A stretch of 64,000 nucleotides of DNA from Gammaproteobacteria bacterium (GTDB lineage: Bacteria; Pseudomonadota; Gammaproteobacteria; Pseudomonadales; Azotimanducaceae), in NCBI GenBank assembly GCA_026708185.1, contig JAPOVK010000017.1:62001-126000 (forward strand), in the 5' to 3' direction. Position 1 is the stretch's first letter. The number at the start of each line of letters is the position of its first letter. Positions 1-9,859 of the stretch are shown here, one piece after another. Made by a program: the position numbers and the translations under genes. The notes under the pieces are model-generated. The model was not told the origin of the DNA. It saw nothing but the letters and a program-made list of their open reading frames with translations, and made no database searches.

Positions 1-1142
1 CCGGCGACATCTTCGGTCTCCGTGCCGTCGCCCCACCGGCCGAGCACGCCGAGGACGCGACCGAGGGGCTCGACTTTCGCCTCGCAAGCAGCAACGATTT
101 GCGCGTGGCCGACGGGATCGGCGTCAACACTGGGCGCAGATTCGGCCAAGCGAAGCCGGACCCGTTCGACCTCGGTCGCGAGAAGGTCGTGCAGTTCGAT
201 CCGGTGCTCGGGTTTCGATGCGAACCGCTTCGCCGTGCCAACGAGGAGGGCCACGGTGGCGGGATCCTGGCGACGGGTCTGGGCGAGAGTGCGTACCTGG
301 TCCCGCAAGGTGCCCAGAAAACCGTCTGCGTCCTCGATCTGAACGAGATGGCCGCTGCGGTGCGCGATGATCCGTTCGGCGCTGTCGCTAGGTCGGCCGG
401 GCGACGCCCAATAGAGCGAGTAGCGCCGAGAAGGGTTGCTTAGGATGGCGCGTCTGAGCGCTTCGTCCCAGTCACCGGACCAGCCGCAAACGATGAGGCC
501 GTGCTCTTCGAGGATGCGCTTGAGAAGTGCGTTGTACTCGGTGGGATACGACTCGAGCTCCGCAGTCGTGTTGCGGATGCGAGCGTCCTTGTAGTCGCCG
601 TGTAGCTTGACGAGATAGCAGGCAGTGTGGGCGAATGGCTCGGCGCCGTCGAGTGCGTCGACCGAGTCGATGACCGTGGGCTCGACGTCGCGCTCGCGCA
701 AGGCGGTCTCGATGAGACGGTCAATGTTGGTCGTGACGATTACGCGGACGAATCCCTCGCGGACGAGGTCGGCAATTGCCCGGTGCGCTGCGGTTGGGGC
801 ATTGCGGCCGTCGCGGACGTCGTCGTTGGTCGGTTCGATGTAAGCTTGCAGGATGGCTCGACGATCGTCCGGTGATGGACCAAGTGCGGCGACGAGGTCC
901 GAGTAATCAGGTTCTCGGTCGAACGCCTGGCGGTACCAATCGGCCCAGTCTGCGTGGTCGGTCTCGCCCCGAAGGGCAGCTACGCGGCGGACCAGATCGA
1001 GGGTGATGTCCCAGCCAGTCGGGATGCCGGCGGCGCTCGAAAGGCCCGAGCCAACTAGCAGGGCGTAGACCCCAGGACTTCCGTAGACCGAGAAGGCGAG
1101 CATGGCCGAAGGATCGGCGGCGGGAGACGTCTGGGTGGCCAT
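1..1142 (-). CDS. SIR2-like NAD-binding/NADase protein, 3' end cut by window edge
   Basis: Reading back from an ATG at 1142 gives 380 codons without a stop to the left edge, so the C-terminus is missing. The N-terminal half is a SIR2 fold: nucleotide-binding GSGLSSAAGIPT (about residues 31-42), TTNID (137-141), the catalytic-type LHGD (180-183, His181) and CGWSGDWDEAL (219-229). In this family such proteins hydrolyse NAD+ or bind ADP-ribose; many phage-defence SIR2 proteins kill infected cells by NAD+ depletion. No zinc-finger cysteines of a deacetylase sirtuin are seen, which favours the defence type (inference). It is the last visible gene of the minus-strand operon that starts at 9859, but a 438-base gap separates it from the nuclease gene, so it may have its own promoter. 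The fold is clear; the exact role is inferred from the neighbours. Confidence 0.85.
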   Translation of the reverse strand, partial: MATQTSPAADPSAMLAFSVYGSPGVYALLVGSGLSSAAGIPTGWDITLDLVRRVAALRGETDHADWADWYRQAFDREPDYSDLVAALGPSPDDRRAILQAYIEPTNDDVRDGRNAPTAAHRAIADLVREGFVRVIVTTNIDRLIETALRERDVEPTVIDSVDALDGAEPFAHTACYLVKLHGDYKDARIRNTTAELESYPTEYNALLKRILEEHGLIVCGWSGDWDEALRRAILSNPSRRYSLYWASPGRPSDSAERIIAHRSGHLVQIEDADGFLGTLRDQVRTLAQTRRQDPATVALLVGTAKRFASKPEHRIELHDLLATEVERVRLRLAESAPSVDADPVGHAQIVAACEAKVEPLGRVLGVLGRWGDGTETEDVA

Positions 1143-1580
1143 AGGTGTGGATTCGCGGACTGCGTTGTGTAGGCGCGCATCGTAGCGTTTGCCGCACAGA
1201 TGTGAAGCCGAAACGCGGTGGCCGAGTTGACGCGTTGGCCGATTTGCCTGGTTGGTGCGCTTAGAAGGTAGGGTCGCGGAGGTGCAGTTGGCGTGGCCTA
1301 CGACTAGGAGGCGAGCCGAGACTGCCGGGGGCGACCCCAGAGGGCGGACTTACGCACGGTGGTTAGTCGCAAAGGTGCCGCGGAGAGAGCCCGGCATCGC
1401 CGCACGCCATGGATGCAGAGGCCCACGATGGGCAGATCGCCAGAGGACAAAGGGGCCCGAAGGCCGTCCGGCCGACTGCGGGAACCACAGGGATCCTCGA
1501 CCGCAAGGTCGTCCGGCCTTGCGTCCCCGTGGGCAGTTTGAAGTTGCACTGGCCGTCAGCCATCGGCTGTCGTGCGAACT
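1143..1580. other. 438-base gap inside the defence operon
   Basis: No reading frame here has convincing protein character; the ORFs on both strands are rich in Arg/Pro/Ser, as expected from high-GC noise. The stretch separates the PLD nuclease gene from the SIR2 gene, whereas the upstream genes overlap or are nearly contiguous. It may hold a second promoter or a decayed gene; I see no clear motif. Confidence 0.5.
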
Positions 1581-2660
1581 TCAGTTGAGGCCAACGAGGC
1601 GTGTTGTTGCGCCGACCCCGAGCCTGAACATGCTGCGGGCATTTTGCGAGGCGCGCGCCCAGGCGTGAGCGAGATCGGAGTTCAGCGGCGTCACGACGAT
1701 CTCGAACGGCGCATTGGGCAGTCGGCGAAACATGACGACCGAGTTGGAGTAGTCTGGCCCGCCTTGGGCCTGCGTGGGAAGGTTGAGTCTCTCCATCCCG
1801 TTGCTGCCATGCCAAGTGAGCGGCCTGTCGGCCCAGACTCTTGAACCGATGCGCAGGAGTGGACAACCGATGTCGGCATGGGGAACGGTGTATTGGCTGA
1901 AGGTCAGCCCAAAGAATCGATGGCCGCGCCGTGGGAGTTCGAGTTGGTTTCCCGACCCGCCCTGCAGCTTCTCGACTTGGACCCACATCTCGTCGAAGGC
2001 GGCCAAGTTGACGTGGCCACCTACAACGGCGTCACGGAAAAGAGGCAGCGCGCCGGTGGCAGGCGTGAAAGGGACAACGGGTTGGCCGTCGTGCGGGGCA
2101 TTGGTCGGCGGCGGTTGCGAACTGCGGAGGTTGCCGTAGGCGCTGAGCAAGTGGGCCGTAAGTGGATCCGTGTCAGCGCTCAGGCGAGAGAACACTGTAT
2201 CAACTTCGGCCGACGGGGCGCTGTGTTGGACCCAGCCTGCTTCGACGTTACTGGTGAGCCCCCGGCCGGTGAGGTTTGCCGAGGCGACCAGGACGCCGGA
2301 CGTCTGATCGCCGACATGGAAGGCGTAGACCTTGGGGTGGAACGCTCGCGCCGGCACAGTGGTTCCCGCGGCGATTTCGCTGGCGCCCGCCACGCGTACC
2401 GACGAGTGCCCAAGGGAGAGCCAGTGGTCGAGAGCCTGAGGCTCCGTGATGCCATAGTCAAAGGACGTGATCAAGGTCTTGGGCATTGCCGCGAACGCTA
2501 CAGGGCCGACCGACTCCGCTACCGAGTCGAGCAGCATCTTGGACCCGGAGACGGTGGTGTACGCAGCGGCCACTTTGATTTCGGCAACGCCTTGGGCGGT
2601 GAGATCCGCGATCGCGTTGCGGATCTTCGCCGGGTGCGTTTGGTTCTGGACTATGAGCAA
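1581..2660 (-). CDS. PLD-fold nuclease, NgoFVII/restriction-endonuclease-like
   Basis: This 359-residue protein carries a phospholipase-D-type motif near residue 108: HPK (His108, Lys110), then SANLT (Ser127, Asn129) and a conserved Glu near 140. That H-x-K...S-x-N...E order is typical of single-HKD nucleases such as NgoFVII and BfiI, which act as dimers and need no metal. The N-terminal ~100 residues read like the alternating strands of the PLD fold; the C-terminal ~200 residues match nothing I know and could be a DNA-recognition region. The gene lies 47 bases downstream of the third methyltransferase gene on the same strand, which suggests it is the cleaving partner of the modification genes. 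Start is the ATG at 2660. Fold confident; restriction role inferred from context. DISARM DrmC is also a PLD protein and is an alternative comparison. Confidence 0.8.
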   Translation of the reverse strand: MLIVQNQTHPAKIRNAIADLTAQGVAEIKVAAAYTTVSGSKMLLDSVAESVGPVAFAAMPKTLITSFDYGITEPQALDHWLSLGHSSVRVAGASEIAAGTTVPARAFHPKVYAFHVGDQTSGVLVASANLTGRGLTSNVEAGWVQHSAPSAEVDTVFSRLSADTDPLTAHLLSAYGNLRSSQPPPTNAPHDGQPVVPFTPATGALPLFRDAVVGGHVNLAAFDEMWVQVEKLQGGSGNQLELPRRGHRFFGLTFSQYTVPHADIGCPLLRIGSRVWADRPLTWHGSNGMERLNLPTQAQGGPDYSNSVVMFRRLPNAPFEIVVTPLNSDLAHAWARASQNARSMFRLGVGATTRLVGLN

Positions 2661-2707
2661 GGTCGTGGCTCGCGAAACGGAAGGCTAGGGCCAAGGCAGT
2701 GTATACG

Positions 2708-5700
2708 TCAGGACGCCACAGGCGGACCGGTGCCCAGCAGGGCGCTGCAGAGGCGGTCGAGGTCTCGGAACGCGTCCGTTCGGGCGAGAAGCGACCTCAT
2801 TCGGCGACGACGCACGGCGAGGGCCTTACGCGGATCGGCGAGGTAGGCATCCTCGGAGCATTTGGCGGCAGCGACGGCGGCGAGCTCGCGGGCGCGCGCG
2901 GCGATGGTCGTGTGATTGGAGTCGTCGGGATCGTAGGGGGGCATGAGCCGGTAGGGAAGCGCGTGGATATGGCGGGGTCCGAAGTCTCCGCGAGGGTTGA
3001 AGGGAAGGATGGCTTCGGTCAACGCGGTGCTGTTCAGCACGCCGGCGGTGAACCACGCGTGGTCGTCGTCCGCGACGACTTGCCAGTACAGGGTCTGGTC
3101 GACGATCAGGTGCTGTGCTTCGGAGACGGGAAGGCAGGCAGCGCATATGAACTTCCCGCCGGCGCCAGCGACGACTAGCGAACCGCTGGAACCGAAGCGC
3201 TGCTTGGTGAGTTTCCCGCGAACGTCGATTCGCTTTTCCAAAGGGTGGCCAGCGCCTACCGTGGCGAGCCGCGCGTTGATCCCCGCGAAGCGGCGGGCGG
3301 TGCGGGTATAGCCCATGTTGCGGACTTGGCGGGGCTCGTAGATTCGCCATTCGCCGGAGTCGTCTCGGAAGGCGGGAATGGCCACCGGCGGTAGTCGGGG
3401 GCCGAACGAGAAGGGGAGGAGGTTTTCCGACAGGGCCAGGCGGTGGATGAAGCGTGGAGCAACGTATCCCGGAAATCGGGAACCGGCGAGTTGTTTCGCT
3501 TGCTTGACGGTGAATCCCCATTCGGTGTCGCGCTCCGGGGTGTCAACGCGGTGCTCTGCGCCGGACGCGTCGAGAAGCTCGATGCAAACGGCAGTGCGAG
3601 GCATGATGTCGGCGCCCTGCTGCGATACCGGGGCGGATGCTGCCGTGACCGCGGGGAGGCCGGCCGCCTCGAGTGTCCACGCCGTTCTCGAATCGCCGAT
3701 CTCGCGAAGAGCGAAATCGGCGTGCTCCAGGCCGTTCACTGTGGCGAGCGCGCCGCCCGTTGCCGGTTGGTCGGCGTCGGTGCGGCTCGCGACCCGTCGA
3801 CCGACCAGGGCGGCACCGGGATACTTGAACGTCCCCGAGGCAACTTGCCAGACATCGGACAGGGCAAGCGGGACGGGGCGTGCGCAATGCAGGTACTCTC
3901 GTTGCCGGAACCGTTCGTGATGGTGGCCATTGAGAACGGTTCCAGGTACTAGGCACGCAATGGCGGCGTCAGGTCGTAGGTAGCGGTCGACGCCATGCAG
4001 GAGATGCATGGTGGCGAGTTCGAGGTGGAGGAACGACTGCCCCGCGGGCATGACGCCGTATTGCTGAGCGCGGCGTGTCAACACATCGCGGTAGGGGTTG
4101 TCGGCAAGAGCGCTCATGGCGAGCCACGGCGGGTTGGAGACGAGCCCGTTGAACTGCCCCGCGAGCAGGCCGGGACGATAGGTGTTGCGTAGGATGAAGG
4201 CCCAGATCCCGTTTCGGCCGGAATCCGCCAGCGTTCGCATGCGAACCGCAAGGTCCAGAAACGCGACCGCGATCGCGCCGAGAAGGTCTTCCGAAACCGT
4301 GGCAGCTGTGGCGGAAGCTGTGTGGTCGACGACGGCGAAGGAGTCCGCGAGCGTCGGCAGCGGCGCGTTCGTGTCGCACGCTTCGTCGTAGGCCCAGTCG
4401 ACTAGTCGGTCGAACAGTTCGCGGCAGTCGGGGCGTAAGACCTGTGACGGCAGGGTCACGGTCTCGCCGTCCAGCTCGATGTCGACGGCGGCGAGGTCTG
4501 CGAGGCTGGAGGGGACCGAAACCGGGGTCACGGCGTACAGCGAGTCCGCATGGTAGACGGGAATGGTGACAGGCTCGGAAGCCGCGTTGATTTCATCGGC
4601 AAGGGCGATGATCCAAGTCGTCTTGGCGAGCGCGACCGCCATGGGATCGATGTCGAAGCCGGTCACGACGTTGTGGAACGCGTCAATGTCGCTGTAGCCG
4701 TACCGTGCTCTGGCGGCACGGAGGGTCTCGGCGAGGATGGCGCCGGAGCCGCAGCAAATGTCCACGATTTCCGGCGGCTGTCCTTCCGGAAGATCCGCCA
4801 GGCACCGGACGGCGAGCAGCCGCGCGAGCCAGGCAGGGGTCCACTCCTGGCCGAGGAGCTTGCGTCGTCCGCGGCTGGCCACCTGGGCCATCAGCCGGCC
4901 GAACAGGTCCTCGGCGATCGGAACGCCGAAGTCGTAGGCGTAGAGGTCGCGTTGAATGTCCGCGGCGATGGGGAGAAGCGCGGCGAGGTGGGGAGCCCTT
5001 GCGAGCCATCCGAAGTAGTCGTGCTCGACGAAGTTGTTGATTCGGTAGCGGTCGCGGAAAAAGGAGCCGTCGACGATGGAACCGAGTTCGTCGTTGTCGC
5101 TTGCGATCGCCAGGCGGTTCAGTGCGTTTGCGGTCAAAAGCCGCGCCATGATGTTGAGGTAGATCTCGTCTACGTACGGCTCGACGCGGAAGGGCGCGTC
5201 GAGGCCCTCTAGGTGGTCCACGAACTTGGCCCAGAGTTCGGTTGCCAAGGCGATGGAGGGGTCGGTTGCGCGCACGGCTTCCACCAGGTTCGCAAGGGCT
5301 CCGGCCGTGCGGCGGTACGTCGGACTCTCAAGGCCGAGGTCCATGGCGAGATGATGGGCGGCGAGCGGATGGGACCGTTGGCGGGCCAAATGGCGCGTGA
5401 GGAACAGAGCGAGGCGTTGTGCCTCTGCGTCGTCGAAGGCCGAAGGACGGAACGTCTCCAACTCGGTGAGTTCGATGTCGCTGGGCGCGCAGGTCTCGGG
5501 CGTGCTGCCGTGGGTGAGGGCAGCGTCGTAGACGATCCACTCGACCGTGTCGGAGAGGACGCCTCGTATGTGGGAGATGGGTACACCTCGGCGAAGGAGG
5601 CCGGAGACGTGCTCTTTGACTTGGCCGTAGCCGGTGTTGCGCTTCGTGATGTCGCGAAGGTCGGCCTCGTATTCGATGGATGTGGAACCGACGAGGTTGT

Positions 5701-5923
5701 CGATGAATCGGCTGCTATTGGTTTCGGCGTCGGCACGTATTGTGGTGTGCGCTTCGGCACCCTCGGAGTAGTGGTTGATCCAGCGTTGGTCGTCGGCGCC
5801 CGGGAACATCCGTCGAAGGCGCGACTGGAACTCGCCCCGCAGGACGGCCTCGGGAACGCCCTGTTCCCGCAAGGTCGAGCATCGGATCATTGTCTCGAGG
5901 ACTTCGGGAATGGCAGCGCTCAC
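2708..5923 (-). CDS. Large N6-adenine DNA methyltransferase, possible N-terminal nuclease domain
   Basis: 1071 residues. The catalytic domain has motif I as DICCGSGAILAETL (about residues 387-400) and the adenine-methylase motif IV NPPW (about 595-598), the order of type IIG and type I adenine methylases that put a methyl group on N6 of adenine in DNA. The C-terminal third is likely the target-recognition region. The first ~370 residues are unusual: the segment near 84-133 holds acidic residues (Glu84, Glu86, Asp91), GYGQVKEH with Lys103, and GVLSDTVEWIVYD, which could be a PD-(D/E)XK-type (QxK) nuclease core; that is an inference. The start ATG overlaps the stop of the upstream methylase gene by 4 bases, so translation is probably coupled. 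Methylase assignment is firm; nuclease is speculative. Confidence 0.85.
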   Translation of the reverse strand: MSAAIPEVLETMIRCSTLREQGVPEAVLRGEFQSRLRRMFPGADDQRWINHYSEGAEAHTTIRADAETNSSRFIDNLVGSTSIEYEADLRDITKRNTGYGQVKEHVSGLLRRGVPISHIRGVLSDTVEWIVYDAALTHGSTPETCAPSDIELTELETFRPSAFDDAEAQRLALFLTRHLARQRSHPLAAHHLAMDLGLESPTYRRTAGALANLVEAVRATDPSIALATELWAKFVDHLEGLDAPFRVEPYVDEIYLNIMARLLTANALNRLAIASDNDELGSIVDGSFFRDRYRINNFVEHDYFGWLARAPHLAALLPIAADIQRDLYAYDFGVPIAEDLFGRLMAQVASRGRRKLLGQEWTPAWLARLLAVRCLADLPEGQPPEIVDICCGSGAILAETLRAARARYGYSDIDAFHNVVTGFDIDPMAVALAKTTWIIALADEINAASEPVTIPVYHADSLYAVTPVSVPSSLADLAAVDIELDGETVTLPSQVLRPDCRELFDRLVDWAYDEACDTNAPLPTLADSFAVVDHTASATAATVSEDLLGAIAVAFLDLAVRMRTLADSGRNGIWAFILRNTYRPGLLAGQFNGLVSNPPWLAMSALADNPYRDVLTRRAQQYGVMPAGQSFLHLELATMHLLHGVDRYLRPDAAIACLVPGTVLNGHHHERFRQREYLHCARPVPLALSDVWQVASGTFKYPGAALVGRRVASRTDADQPATGGALATVNGLEHADFALREIGDSRTAWTLEAAGLPAVTAASAPVSQQGADIMPRTAVCIELLDASGAEHRVDTPERDTEWGFTVKQAKQLAGSRFPGYVAPRFIHRLALSENLLPFSFGPRLPPVAIPAFRDDSGEWRIYEPRQVRNMGYTRTARRFAGINARLATVGAGHPLEKRIDVRGKLTKQRFGSSGSLVVAGAGGKFICAACLPVSEAQHLIVDQTLYWQVVADDDHAWFTAGVLNSTALTEAILPFNPRGDFGPRHIHALPYRLMPPYDPDDSNHTTIAARARELAAVAAAKCSEDAYLADPRKALAVRRRRMRSLLARTDAFRDLDRLCSALLGTGPPVAS

Positions 5924-8022
5924 CGCGACCCCCGGCGCGCCTTGCGTAGTTGAGCGGCGCGCTCAAGCAAAGCGGTAGCGACGGTGTCGATGTAGGACGG
6001 TGAGATCGAGGCGGGAAGCATGGCGCCGAGCACGACGCGATCGACGAGAGCCCGGGACGAACTTCCGCGCTCGCGAGCGACGGACTGGAGTTTCGCGATG
6101 GTCGGGCCGTTGAACGACGGTAGAGGGAGTCTGCTGAGATGCGATGCCTCAAGCTTCAGGGCACCGCCACCGAGGCGCGTGCCGCCGGCCTCCATGAGGG
6201 CTACGCACCATGCGCTGTTGAAGAGCATCGCCAAGACGTCGGCAGTGAATCGAGGGTCGTCGGACCAGAGCGACGAGAAGTTGGCGTCGATCAATAGCTT
6301 CGGATCGGTGTTCACGTAGGTCCGAGGCAGCCCGTAGTTGACTCGGGGCACGAAGGCGTCAGGCATGTGGCGCGGGGCGAAGGCGGGGAGCATGTACCAG
6401 AAACGCGGCGTTGCATTCGCTCGGGCGGGTCGGATGTTCGTACGAACTGCAGATAGGGCGGAAACGGTCCTGCCATTCAGAGGGCCGGGCAGGGATGTGC
6501 ACGCAGCCGACCGAACATGCTCCGCCAAGCCTTCGGGCATCTCGCCGGGCGTTTGCTCGCCCATGCGTTGGTAAATTGTCCGGGCAGCGTTTACGGCTGG
6601 CATGTCTTCAGGCAGAACCCAGTGCCGAAGGTCGAGTACATGGGTACGGATGTGGTGCGAGCGCGGTGCAGCTAGTTCGGCTTGGCGATGGAGGACGGGC
6701 TTGAGTGCGATGGTCGGAACGGAGACAACCCGCGAGTCGAACACAGCGTGCGTAGTGACGTCGGAAGCCTCGCCAGACGGCTCGGAGATTGCGTCAACGT
6801 AGAAGAACCGGTTGCACCCCGTCCTGAGGCCCTGCCCGGTGTGGATTCCGAGGTCGTTCGCGGAGCGGAAGGAGTTTGGATGGAGCTTGGGAGGCATGAG
6901 ATCACGAAGGGTCTCCGGAATGTGCCCGAGGGCGGGCCGATGAGATGGCTGGTTGACCGTTCTGACTGGACGCGAGGATGGCTCGAGTGTCGTCAGCCAA
7001 GCGGGAACTCGGGGGGCGGCTCGCAGCGACGCCCATTCGTCTTGTGCGTCGAACTTCCGGGCTGCTATTCCGGCGGGCGGGCTGTCGGTCCGATGCGCGA
7101 GGGCCCAAGAGGCGAACGCCGCTTCGGGTGCGTCGCATGGGAACGCGCGACCGATCGATGAAATGTCGGACTCCGCTTCGGCATGGATCTGGAACCAGGC
7201 TCCCGGCGACCACGCGGTTCTGTCGCGCAAGGGTACGCCCGTCGCGTCCGCATGAAGGCGCCGGGCAACGACGAGGTGCGTGCCGACGAGGGCATCGGGA
7301 AACCAACCGCCGTGCGAGTCTTCGACGACGACCTCGACGCGGAACGCACGGAGCAAGAGGTAGCGAACAACGTCGGCGTAGCTACGGGACCGCCAGGTCG
7401 CGGGGATCACGAGCGCCAAACGTCCGCCGGGCCGAACAAACAGGGCACAGAGGAGGCACGACGGAATGGAGAGATCGGCGAGCCCCGAATAGCCGTCGGC
7501 AAGAGTGGTCCAGATTGTGCGGGCAGCGCCGTCGAGGCGTTGCGAGGCGATTCGCGCGACACCGCGACGGACGGCGTCGGTGCGGCCGCGCATGGATTGA
7601 TAGCGGACGTACGGGGGATTGGCGATGACAAGGTCGTATTGGGTCTCGCTTCGTGCGTGGGTGGCGGGGTCGAAGGCGTCGGAGCGGAGAATCCGGATGT
7701 CAGGGCCGTTGCCCCGGACGAGGTGGTTCAGGCGACGTTGGCAGAGTCGAGCGGCCTTGTCGTCGATCTCGATCGCATGGAGCTGGCGAATCGAGTTGCC
7801 GCGAAGCGTCGACGCGTCGTAGACGGCGTCGAGGAGGTCTCCCGTTCCGGCCATCGGATCGAGGACGCGTTCGGTGTCCGCCCGGTTGGCGAGGTGCGCC
7901 AGCACTGCACTGACTTTACGGCCAGTGAAGAATTGGCCTAAGGCCTTGCGACGGTCTTGCGGCAGCGCCTTCTCGAACGCCCGGGATTCGGCGCGCAGTC
8001 CTGCGATGCCGTCATCGGGCAC
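5920..8022 (-). CDS. N6-adenine DNA methyltransferase, TaqI/Eco57I-like
   Basis: 700 residues. The N-terminus has LGQFFTG (28-34), usual just before the SAM-binding core of type I/IIG adenine methylases, then motif I VLDPMAGTGD (53-62) and motif IV NPPYVRYQ (135-142). The region after residue ~330 would be the target-recognition domain, as in M.TaqI and Eco57I-type enzymes. No helicase or separate nuclease domain is visible, so by itself it modifies DNA. It overlaps the upstream methylase gene by 11 bases and the downstream one by 4, so the three are one transcriptional unit. Three methylases with different catalytic motifs in a row is odd for a plain restriction-modification system; they may methylate different sites or act as inactive recognition subunits. 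Motifs look intact. Confidence 0.88.
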   Translation of the reverse strand: MPDDGIAGLRAESRAFEKALPQDRRKALGQFFTGRKVSAVLAHLANRADTERVLDPMAGTGDLLDAVYDASTLRGNSIRQLHAIEIDDKAARLCQRRLNHLVRGNGPDIRILRSDAFDPATHARSETQYDLVIANPPYVRYQSMRGRTDAVRRGVARIASQRLDGAARTIWTTLADGYSGLADLSIPSCLLCALFVRPGGRLALVIPATWRSRSYADVVRYLLLRAFRVEVVVEDSHGGWFPDALVGTHLVVARRLHADATGVPLRDRTAWSPGAWFQIHAEAESDISSIGRAFPCDAPEAAFASWALAHRTDSPPAGIAARKFDAQDEWASLRAAPRVPAWLTTLEPSSRPVRTVNQPSHRPALGHIPETLRDLMPPKLHPNSFRSANDLGIHTGQGLRTGCNRFFYVDAISEPSGEASDVTTHAVFDSRVVSVPTIALKPVLHRQAELAAPRSHHIRTHVLDLRHWVLPEDMPAVNAARTIYQRMGEQTPGEMPEGLAEHVRSAACTSLPGPLNGRTVSALSAVRTNIRPARANATPRFWYMLPAFAPRHMPDAFVPRVNYGLPRTYVNTDPKLLIDANFSSLWSDDPRFTADVLAMLFNSAWCVALMEAGGTRLGGGALKLEASHLSRLPLPSFNGPTIAKLQSVARERGSSSRALVDRVVLGAMLPASISPSYIDTVATALLERAAQLRKARRGSR

Positions 8023-9859
8023 GTTTCGCCTCTGGTGTGTGCAGTGCGTACCAGTTGTAGAAATCGCCTGCGTCGATCGGGACGTCCTGGTGGTTGGCGA
8101 GGAAGTGGCTGACGAGGCGGGAATAGAGGCGTTCAGGCGTCCGCTCGGATGGGTCGAGGTCGCGCGCTTCGCGTTCCAGCTCCGTGGCGACTTCCCATGC
8201 GGTGGCAGTTGTCGGTCGCCGGCCTGCTAGCCGCTTGCGAAGGAGGAGGACAGGATCGCCGCGAACCGCGCCGGCTGTGGTGACCTGCTTGAAGCTGGCC
8301 TGTGTCTTGTCGAGGATCCCGGCGTGTTCGACGCTGAGCCCGGCGTCGGAGTAGGCGTTGCGGAGCGCGTTCCAGACCGCGGCCGAGGCGGAGTGGAATA
8401 CGAGGGTTGCGCGGGCATGCGGCTTGAGAATCCGACGAACTTCGGACAAGGCGGTGGTCAGGAGTTCTTGATACGCGGCTACCGGCTTTCGTTGCGCGCG
8501 GTTGACGATGGCTTCCTCGGCGGTGTCGGTGAAGCTCCCCAACCACGCCTCGTTGAGGAAGGAGAGTTCGGAATAGGGGATGTTGCCGCCGAACGGCGGA
8601 TCGGTAAAGACGTAGTCAATGGAACGATCAGGTAGGTCCACGACGCAGCTCGACTTTTGGTGCACAGCAACCTGGCCAGCGCGCCCGTGTATTGACTCGA
8701 AGGCTTTGGCGATGGTGGATAGCTTGCGCGCCAAGCCGCGGAAGACGTTCTTCTCTACGGGCAGCCCGCTGACATACAGGACGCCTGGCTGTGCGCTTGT
8801 GACGACGAGATCATCCCTCCGTGCGGACTTCGCAACGACTCGGGTCATGATGGTCGTGTGCGACGCGTTGTAGCTGAGAAGCCAGAAGCGCACGGCGTCG
8901 CGAAGCGGGGAATCGAGGCCGTTGGCTCGTTCCCACAGATGCCCGAAGGCGATGAGATTCCTACGCGTGTAGAAATGGTGAAGGTGCGAGATGCCCCGGT
9001 GGTAGCCTCCGCGGTGGAGGTCGCCCCACGGGATCTCTAGCACGGGAACGCACCGAGGGATCGGTTCGCGTTCGACGCGTGCGAGCAGCTCGTCGTCGTC
9101 GTCGTTGGGATGGCGTTGCCAGGTGGATGTACCCGTGATGCCGTAGACGCGCGCGATGGAACGTCGGCGCCGGTCGGTGAGTTTGCCGATCAAATCGTCC
9201 CGTGTACTCTCGGTAACCCGTTCCAAAGATCCGCTTGGATGCTCGGCTCCGCATGACGGGCAACGGAACACGCGATCGATCCTAGCGGGCTCGAAGGAGA
9301 CGCAGACATCCCAAAGACCGACGACGTGGCCGCATGAACGGCAGCGGACGAGGTCGCTCCAAACGGCGTGCCTGATGGCACCGTAGCGGCCGTTTGGATC
9401 GCGGGCGGAATACAACCAACCGAAATCCGCGTCCGCGGCGCGGAGAATATCCGTGGCCGCCTTGTGGAAGAGCGTCGGGTCCGGTGGGTCGTTGAGCGTG
9501 CGTGCGACGAATGCGCCAAGGGAACTCAGCTCGTAGAGCACCGCATCGCGTGGACCCCACTGCGCTGCGAGGCCCCGTCGCTCGGCTTCGAGGCGTAAGG
9601 AGGGCGGGGGATCTTGGCACAGCAAGGCAGCGAGACCGGTCGTGCCGCTTCCGGCGAAGCCATCGAAGACGGTCGCTCCCGGCCGGGTGTGCGTCGCGAT
9701 GTAGAGCGCTATTGCCTCGGGGTCGATCTTGGTGGGGTAGGGGAAGGCGGCATAGAGTGGGCCGGTTCGTCTTGAGGGAAGCGCGCCGCGATAGATGTCA
9801 GCAAGCTGGTGCTTGGGGATGCGGTGGTCCGGCGGACGCAAGGGGGCAGATTCGGGCAC
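8012..9859 (-). CDS. DNA methyltransferase with internal zinc ribbon
   Basis: 615 residues. Motif I is FDGFAGSGTTGL (65-76), the form seen in N4-cytosine/N6-adenine methylases, and motif IV is TDPPFGGN near residue 422. Between them lies a four-cysteine zinc ribbon (Cys173, Cys176, Cys200, Cys203) and a long insert, giving the motif I - insert - motif IV order. The C-terminal part resembles the end of DUF1156-type DNA methylases, but I cannot confirm that by search. The first ~45 residues (PLYAAFPYPTKIDPEA) also look like substrate-side methylase sequence. As the first gene of the operon it probably sets expression of the whole cassette; the promoter should lie in 9860-10480. Methyltransferase activity on DNA is likely; target base and sequence are unknown. 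Confidence 0.85.
   Translation of the reverse strand: MPESAPLRPPDHRIPKHQLADIYRGALPSRRTGPLYAAFPYPTKIDPEAIALYIATHTRPGATVFDGFAGSGTTGLAALLCQDPPPSLRLEAERRGLAAQWGPRDAVLYELSSLGAFVARTLNDPPDPTLFHKAATDILRAADADFGWLYSARDPNGRYGAIRHAVWSDLVRCRSCGHVVGLWDVCVSFEPARIDRVFRCPSCGAEHPSGSLERVTESTRDDLIGKLTDRRRRSIARVYGITGTSTWQRHPNDDDDELLARVEREPIPRCVPVLEIPWGDLHRGGYHRGISHLHHFYTRRNLIAFGHLWERANGLDSPLRDAVRFWLLSYNASHTTIMTRVVAKSARRDDLVVTSAQPGVLYVSGLPVEKNVFRGLARKLSTIAKAFESIHGRAGQVAVHQKSSCVVDLPDRSIDYVFTDPPFGGNIPYSELSFLNEAWLGSFTDTAEEAIVNRAQRKPVAAYQELLTTALSEVRRILKPHARATLVFHSASAAVWNALRNAYSDAGLSVEHAGILDKTQASFKQVTTAGAVRGDPVLLLRKRLAGRRPTTATAWEVATELEREARDLDPSERTPERLYSRLVSHFLANHQDVPIDAGDFYNWYALHTPEAKRAR

Follow-up and report, generated by a model that had tools for sequence, protein, structure and literature searches.

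The first 9,859 positions of a 64,000-nucleotide stretch of DNA from a gammaproteobacterium of the family Azotimanducaceae (contig JAPOVK010000017.1, positions 62,001 to 126,000 of the forward strand; the whole stretch is called the window hereafter) hold five genes on the minus strand, encoding three DNA methyltransferases (M1, M2 and M3), a PLD protein and a SIR2 protein. The unit found here is the trio M1-M2-M3 and not the five-gene set, and this trio is probably a widespread three-gene restriction-modification system similar to those of Type IIG (IIC) that work with two companion methylases, accompanied in the window by an accessory PLD protein. An initial annotation of this DNA had proposed a methylation-marked defence-type system, which is supported for the trio, and had arranged all five genes into one layered system of modification, PLD and SIR2, which did not hold, as SIR2 appeared in none and PLD in four of the 46 trio loci examined elsewhere. 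All five open reading frames (ORFs) of that annotation are present, M1 and M2 overlapping by 11 bases (8012-8022) and M2 and M3 by 4 bases (5920-5923), while PLD begins 47 bp past M3 and SIR2 438 bp past PLD. Likewise, the motifs it had named were all read in the translations (DPPF, as TDPPF, NPPY, NPPW, HPK...SAN, GSG, TTNID and LHGD). The features are the following, all on the minus strand:

8012..9859, minus strand: M1, 615 aa, zinc-ribbon adenine-type DNA methyltransferase, relative of BREX-3 PglXI/BrxXI without the C-terminal part
9251..9343, minus strand: M1 zinc-ribbon cysteines C173, C176, C200 and C203 (M1 alignment)
8591..8602, minus strand: M1 catalytic DPPF, residues 420-423 (M1 alignment)
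5920..8022, minus strand: M2, 700 aa, gamma-type N6-adenine methyltransferase (N6_Mtase / Eco57I Pfam matches)
7609..7620, minus strand: M2 NPPY (M2 alignment)
2708..5923, minus strand: M3, 1071 aa, Type IIG-like, with predicted PD-(D/E)XK-type domain, helical connector, N6-methyltransferase (NPPW) and C-terminal region
5444..5923, minus strand: M3 residues 1-160, predicted PD-(D/E)XK-type nuclease domain with Glu replacing Lys (alignment and model topology)
5666..5701, minus strand: M3 motif D75...E84-Y85-E86 (M3 alignment)
1581..2660, minus strand: PLD, 359 aa, BfiI-like, N-terminal PLD domain and C-terminal B3-like recognition domain (structure match)
2241..2339, minus strand: PLD candidate active-site residues H108, K110, N129 and E140 (invariant in five sequences)
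3..1142, minus strand: N-terminal part of SIR2, PDC-S65 family, the gene continuing left of the window

Conservation of the M1-M2-M3 trio

A total of 46 loci were examined in addition to the window: 39 from a scan of 84,980 species genomes for M3, two viral contigs, one plasmid and four Escherichia coli loci. The scan used two peptide patterns taken from two M3 sequences and therefore favours this type of M3, and the E. coli search, whose query was the DNA of the Buttiauxella M3, detects only near relatives of that gene. Moreover, the loci are not independent: the full-length M3 rows, 38 when the window and Hymenobacter are counted but E. coli is not, form 32 clusters at 90% identity. In all 42 loci offering 3.9 kb or more upstream of M3, M1, M2 and M3 stood in this order on one strand, and the remaining four were cut by contig ends upstream of M3. 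Since the order was kept in 42 of 42 loci, against 0 of 46 loci with SIR2 and four of 46 with PLD, the trio was taken as the unit. In the 34 loci measured, with ORF starts set mechanically, M1 and M2 always overlapped or lay no more than 15 bases apart, and M2 and M3 overlapped or lay within 30 bases in 33 cases, the exception having PLD between them; an overlap of 4 bases was found for M1/M2 in 16 and for M2/M3 in 15 of these loci. In one locus (L041:5998-9972), M1 and M2 form a single ORF of 1324 aa that matches both profiles. Furthermore, the pairwise identities of M1, M2 and M3 correlate at 0.91, 0.92 and 0.94 (36 loci), as for genes inherited as a unit. A frameshift was seen to split M1 in the Hymenobacter record (L008:14038-15845).

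Carriers with a name in the M3 tree come from 12 phyla, which are intermixed, and the M3 of the window falls together with those of Acidobacteriota, Chloroflexota and Planctomycetota. M3 copies 86-95% identical were observed in Paucibacter, a Comamonadaceae metagenome-assembled genome, Buttiauxella and Stenotrophomonas (L031, L032, L040 and L043), pointing to recent transfer between distant Pseudomonadota. In a sample of 398 genomes of the phylum, own genome included, none of the other 397 had a close M3, with three distant matches at 26-28%, and no match was found in the phage collection searched with M3. To find flanking partners, 657 ORFs were clustered from 44 loci, with L001 and L002 among them being the window's own. 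No family other than the core genes appeared in more than five of the 44 loci, and only three clusters appeared in more than three: a short gene, helix-turn-helix-like by eye (four loci), AAA_13/PDC-S06 genes (four loci) and PLD (five loci, window counted).

Among 5,426 E. coli genomes, four carried the trio (L063-L066), in copies 98-100% alike that adjoin an integrase gene at tRNA-Leu, the integrase being broken in two of the four. Neither PLD nor SIR2 was found within the 27 kb inspected at these loci, and two of them had other restriction genes or their remnants approximately 4-8 kb upstream. Their trio genes are annotated as DNA methyltransferase, N-6 DNA methylase and either hypothetical protein or DNA methyltransferase family protein. 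A system of the kind proposed would explain genes now labelled 'hypothetical protein' or 'N-6 DNA methylase'. The trio stays together across at least 12 phyla and occurs in a few E. coli genomes with neither PLD nor SIR2 beside it, which makes the proposal directly testable.

M3, a methylase with a predicted nuclease domain

M3 has a methylase core with NPPW, and Type IIG profiles match it from residue 277 onward. Six residues, namely E25, E57, D75, E84, E86 and Q101, do not vary across the 34 rows aligned, of which 33 are less than 90% alike. In the structural model (pLDDT 84.5), the N-terminus shows helices, then three strands bearing D75 and E84-Y-E86, a helix bearing Q101 and further strands, which is the order of helices and strands of PD-(D/E)XK nucleases. 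The model fits such a fold, and residues 1-160 seem to constitute a PD-(D/E)XK-type nuclease domain. Six of the seven distant M3 relatives were compared at the same site (L005 was left out because its ORF was the wrong one), showing E-x-K in four of them (L009, L004, L006 and L007) and E-x-E in two (L010 and L011), so that in M3 a Glu takes the place of the usual Lys; an E-x-E site is active in BamHI. The best solved structures matched by Foldseek with the whole M3 model include BrxX, which ranked best, MmeI, DrdV and BpuSI. The C-terminal region, assigned by position and model only, should hold target recognition. Overall, the modelled M3 looks like an enzyme of Type IIG that both cuts and methylates and that, as in BpuSI, is accompanied by two further methylases.

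M1 and M2, the proposed companion methylases

M1 matched the PADLOC profile PglXI at 9.9e-130 (profile positions 111-697 of 919) and was 33-35% identical to two BREX-3 proteins. In all 37 aligned M1 (window included), motif I is followed by an insert with four conserved Cys and then by DPPF. For M2, NPPY was present in all 38 aligned copies; both alignments were filtered by length, which left out fused, cut or broken copies. A survey of BREX describes an insert of this kind, for which its searches detected homologues only within BREX (PMC12839542). From its sequence, M1 looks like a BrxXI-type relative outside BREX that lacks the C-terminal extension, and the trio would thereby provide a BrxXI-type methylase outside BREX.

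PLD, a candidate add-on cutter

The profile matches of PLD were weak, involving the models ZacB, DrmC (best E 9e-5), PLDc_2 and NgoFVII. Its structural model (pLDDT 82.6) had BfiI as the top Foldseek match (2c1l, 1.8e-11), covering both domains, and also matched the BfiI recognition domain (3zi5, 3.9e-4). H108, K110, N129 and E140 are invariant in the five copies and correspond to the conserved H, K, N and E of BfiI. Consequently, the model fits a BfiI-like protein with a PLD catalytic domain followed by a B3-like DNA recognition domain, in the same two-domain layout and with almost the same length (359 vs. 358 aa). In contrast to BfiI (Type IIS), the partners of PLD here are methylases of Type IIG kind.

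The position of PLD varies among the trio loci having it: after M3 in the window and L019, before M1 in L023, between M2 and M3 in L038, and after M3 in convergent orientation in L053. On the M3 tree, PLD occurs in four separate places, requiring four changes over the 31 tips counted, window included, seven of the 38 tips having been dropped for short flanks. PLD is rare: in the phylum sample, two weak partial matches to PLD were found among the 397 other genomes. On plasmids, the PLD relative adjoins a DNA methylase in all seven records with one (six distinct strains). The neighbour is an MmeI-type methylase in Methylobacterium oryzae, M. currus and Methylorubrum (D65...E-Q-K being kept in both of the two inspected) and in Methylosinus (two records of one strain), and a Type IIG-like methylase in Methylocystis iwaonis, while in Methylocystis sp. 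MJC1 (L068:4923-6056) the relative lies between a methylase and drmA of a DISARM locus. Taking these sequences together, PLD is read as a putative accessory add-on cutter for methylation-marked systems, which would make a BfiI-like nuclease a reusable addition to methylation-based defences. The initial annotation had made PLD the cutter: it does recurrently join such methylases, but a nuclease domain is also predicted within M3 itself, which gives more than one candidate cutter. A PLD endonuclease/translocase beside an MmeI-like methylase and target recognition domain (TRD) has already been described as AchA6III, where the methylase has no nuclease motif of its own (PMC4752239); there PLD is fused to the translocase, whereas in the present locus M3 has retained the motif and PLD resembles BfiI.

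Comparison with known systems

In the proposed Type IIG-like system, M1, M2 and M3 would mark the host DNA, and M3, with the predicted nuclease domain, the methylase and the presumed recognition region in one chain, would cut DNA without the marks. PLD would be a second, metal-independent cutter added here, presumably blocked by the same methylation. What was observed is a constant gene set and order, conserved catalytic motifs, predicted folds and examples of a mobile and defence setting, whereas we infer the enzymatic activities, the shared target site, the cutting of unmarked DNA and the obedience of PLD to the same marks.

The closest parallel is BpuSI, described as two methylases plus one fusion in the order nuclease-connector-methylase-TRD (PMC3817140). 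The likeness lies in the structural match of M3 (3s1s, Foldseek 4.8e-10) and in the set of three enzymes, one nuclease-methylase fusion and two separate methylases. Enzymes of Type IIG/IIC can be accompanied by no separate methylase, by one (Eco57I) or by two (BpuSI) (PMC4081073), and M1 and M2, both present in 42 of 42 loci, correspond to the last option. Published features of Type IIG also include cleavage stimulated by S-adenosylmethionine and a single recognition domain for the whole system. However, M2.BpuSI methylates cytosine, as found by bisulfite sequencing (PMC3817140), whereas both companions here look like amino-methylases, one of them BrxXI-type; moreover, M3 has E-x-E, and phmmer gives no sequence match to BpuSI. 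The single-chain enzymes MmeI and DrdV (Type IIL/IIG) match M3 in structure and have the same domain order, but MmeI needs no companion methylase (PMC3817140), and M3 is without the MmeI Pfam domain.

Two defence systems were suggested by profile matches, BREX by PglXI and DISARM by DrmC, and membership in both was rejected because their core genes did not appear among the genes examined. M1 is related to BrxXI of BREX type 3, but it is without the C-terminal ~280-300 residues described for BrxXI. No BrxF, BrxC/PglY, PglZ or BrxHII was found by PADLOC among the tested flanking genes of the window, and none is annotated in the four E. coli loci; in the clustering, no neighbour family recurred in more than five of 44 loci, and no profile search for PglZ or BrxC covered loci other than the window. 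DISARM shares the combination of a methylase with PLD, and a PLD relative lies inside the DISARM locus of Methylocystis sp. MJC1, but no drmA, drmB, drmD or drmE was found by PADLOC among the eight flanking genes of the window tested, SIR2 included, or is annotated in the four E. coli loci. M2 and M3 had only generic best matches in PADLOC and NCBIfam. The refuting case of a DISARM variant with drmA/drmB just outside did not arise among the eight flanking genes tested, and, in agreement with the initial annotation, no name for a three-methylase system was found in the open-licence PMC literature (titles and abstract openings), PADLOC or NCBIfam, a search that had REBASE, DefenseFinder and the PADLOC system rules outside its range.

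Points against the Type IIG-like reading and its alternatives

Several observations weigh against a Type IIG-like system with two companions and an accessory PLD. Regarding M3, sequence profiles match the methylase part only and none supports the nuclease domain (residues 1-160), the profile of M3 against PDB hitting just BrxX and a few other methylases, all in the methylase part. The Foldseek matches of the whole model combine a high rmsd (root-mean-square deviation) with a low TM and are therefore no proof of the N-terminal fold. The motif is E-x-E, whereas most such nucleases have E-x-K, and M3 appears interrupted in two copies, the ORF beginning near residue ~100 in L035 and being split in L049. 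For PLD, the profile match to BfiI (2c1l) by sequence only reaches E 0.077, and the model rests on five aligned copies. Finally, the three methylases may have three recognition domains. Residues 301-350 and 451-500 of M2 (window ~7120-6973 and ~6670-6523) were 12-31% identical, mostly not because of gaps, in three of the six close pairs rechecked, in which gaps were counted apart and a single BREX PglXI pair served as control. In the same three pairs, M3 501-550 drops to 25-49%, and M3 851-900 drops to 38-57% in some, while conservation in M1 and in the C-terminal half of M3 roughly equals that elsewhere in the proteins. The variable blocks of M2 may be where it reads its target. A fixed target, with recognition regions conserved in all three proteins, was also considered, and the strong variation of the M2 blocks speaks against it.

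A more ambitious reading, which we regard as rather unlikely, is that the marks of the three different methylases together form one code, and that DNA on which this code is absent or incomplete is cut, or blocked, by M3. The trio would then be a distinct defence family crossing phyla, and PLD an exchangeable second cutter reading the marks of several otherwise unrelated systems. Some of the code may be common to all carriers, because between close carriers M1 and the C-terminal half of M3 vary about as little as the remainder of the proteins, and M2 could carry the variable part.

It is also unlikely that the E-x-E domain of M3 is dead or structural, in which case the trio would block phage without cutting, as BREX has been reported to do, or PLD would be the sole nuclease where present. 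The replacement of Lys by Glu in all aligned M3 agrees with this, and so do the BrxXI relationship of M1 and BrxX as the best structural match of M3. However, it would be difficult to account for four motif residues invariant in 34 rows if the site were dead, active nucleases with E-x-E exist (for example BamHI), and no BREX partner gene was found in the tested flanks of the window or among the annotated genes of the E. coli loci. Moreover, PLD cannot be a general cutter, since 42 of the 46 loci show none.

Mobile and defence context of the trio

The trio was found in phage-like DNA in three loci (L029, L058 and L059). In particular, the Youngiibacter trio (L029) has genes for a phage DNA polymerase and an exonuclease as neighbours, and its M3 is identical to that of the viral contig L058. 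Ten genes neighbouring trio copies were picked by eye as examples, giving no estimate of rate; nine of them have PADLOC matches at or below 1e-5, and Pfam identifies the remaining one as a McrBC component. These neighbours include PDC-S06/AAA_13 (PrrC-like) genes in L043, L045 and L052, McrBC-type genes in L056 and L059, and PD-Lambda-4, PDC-S53, Gabija GajB and GmrSD. A cassette of mobile elements that only methylates, shielding the element DNA from host restriction with no restriction of its own, would suit the copy beside the phage genes, those in viral contigs, the one on a plasmid and those at the E. coli integrase/tRNA site; nevertheless, it is improbable given the invariant nuclease-like motif in M3 and the restriction and defence genes beside several copies.

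SIR2 and the putative island around it

Extending the contig leftwards, as the initial annotation had advised, recovered the whole SIR2 gene (L001:17385-19142, 585 aa). The protein matches PADLOC PDC-S65 over its full length (5.3e-191, profile positions 15-585 of 592), and between residues 29 and 303 it is similar to the Sir2 protein in PDB 8in8 and to related ones, 8in8 being an NADase of a short-Argonaute system. A literature search on PDC-S65, a PADLOC candidate, found nothing. The same annotation had named a SIR2 gene not conserved with the others as refuting its system, and the 0 of 46 loci led us to reject SIR2 as a partner of the trio. A promoter-like site, a weak match to the consensus, precedes SIR2 in the 438-bp gap, and PDC-S65 genes stand without the trio methylases in both plasmid neighbourhoods opened. 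SIR2 is most likely an independent neighbouring defence gene of the same island and not part of the system. A layered system in which the methylases mark self, PLD cuts and SIR2 depletes NAD+ as a backup is thus very improbable: the five genes share one strand and SIR2 resembles an NADase, but this gap with its own promoter-like site, the PDC-S65 genes lacking the trio, and the counts for SIR2 and PLD all oppose it. On both plasmids, the PDC-S65 SIR2 gene is followed by a gene of ~270 aa (L015:13970-14788 and L016:13812-14621), one of which matches PD-T4-5 at 2e-9 and the other nothing.

Left of SIR2 there are a gene for a 673-aa protein, a DUF6642 gene, a DUF6602 gene with NucC/PD-DExK-like matches and a small serine recombinase:

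L001:14670-16691 (C3:58670-60691): 673-aa protein, no Pfam, PADLOC or NCBIfam match
L001:13690-14292: DUF6642 gene
L001:12301-13191: DUF6602 gene
L001:11335-11411: tRNA-Arg

The DUF6602 and DUF6642 genes near the serine recombinase and the tRNA-Arg are a possible island edge. The G+C content was 0.61-0.67 over C3:53001-73000 compared to 0.65-0.69 further left and 0.72 for positions 14001-64000 of the window, which fits an acquired island, more clearly on the right side than on the left. One relative of the 673-aa protein, 58.5% identical, was found on a Mesorhizobium plasmid beside an integrase.

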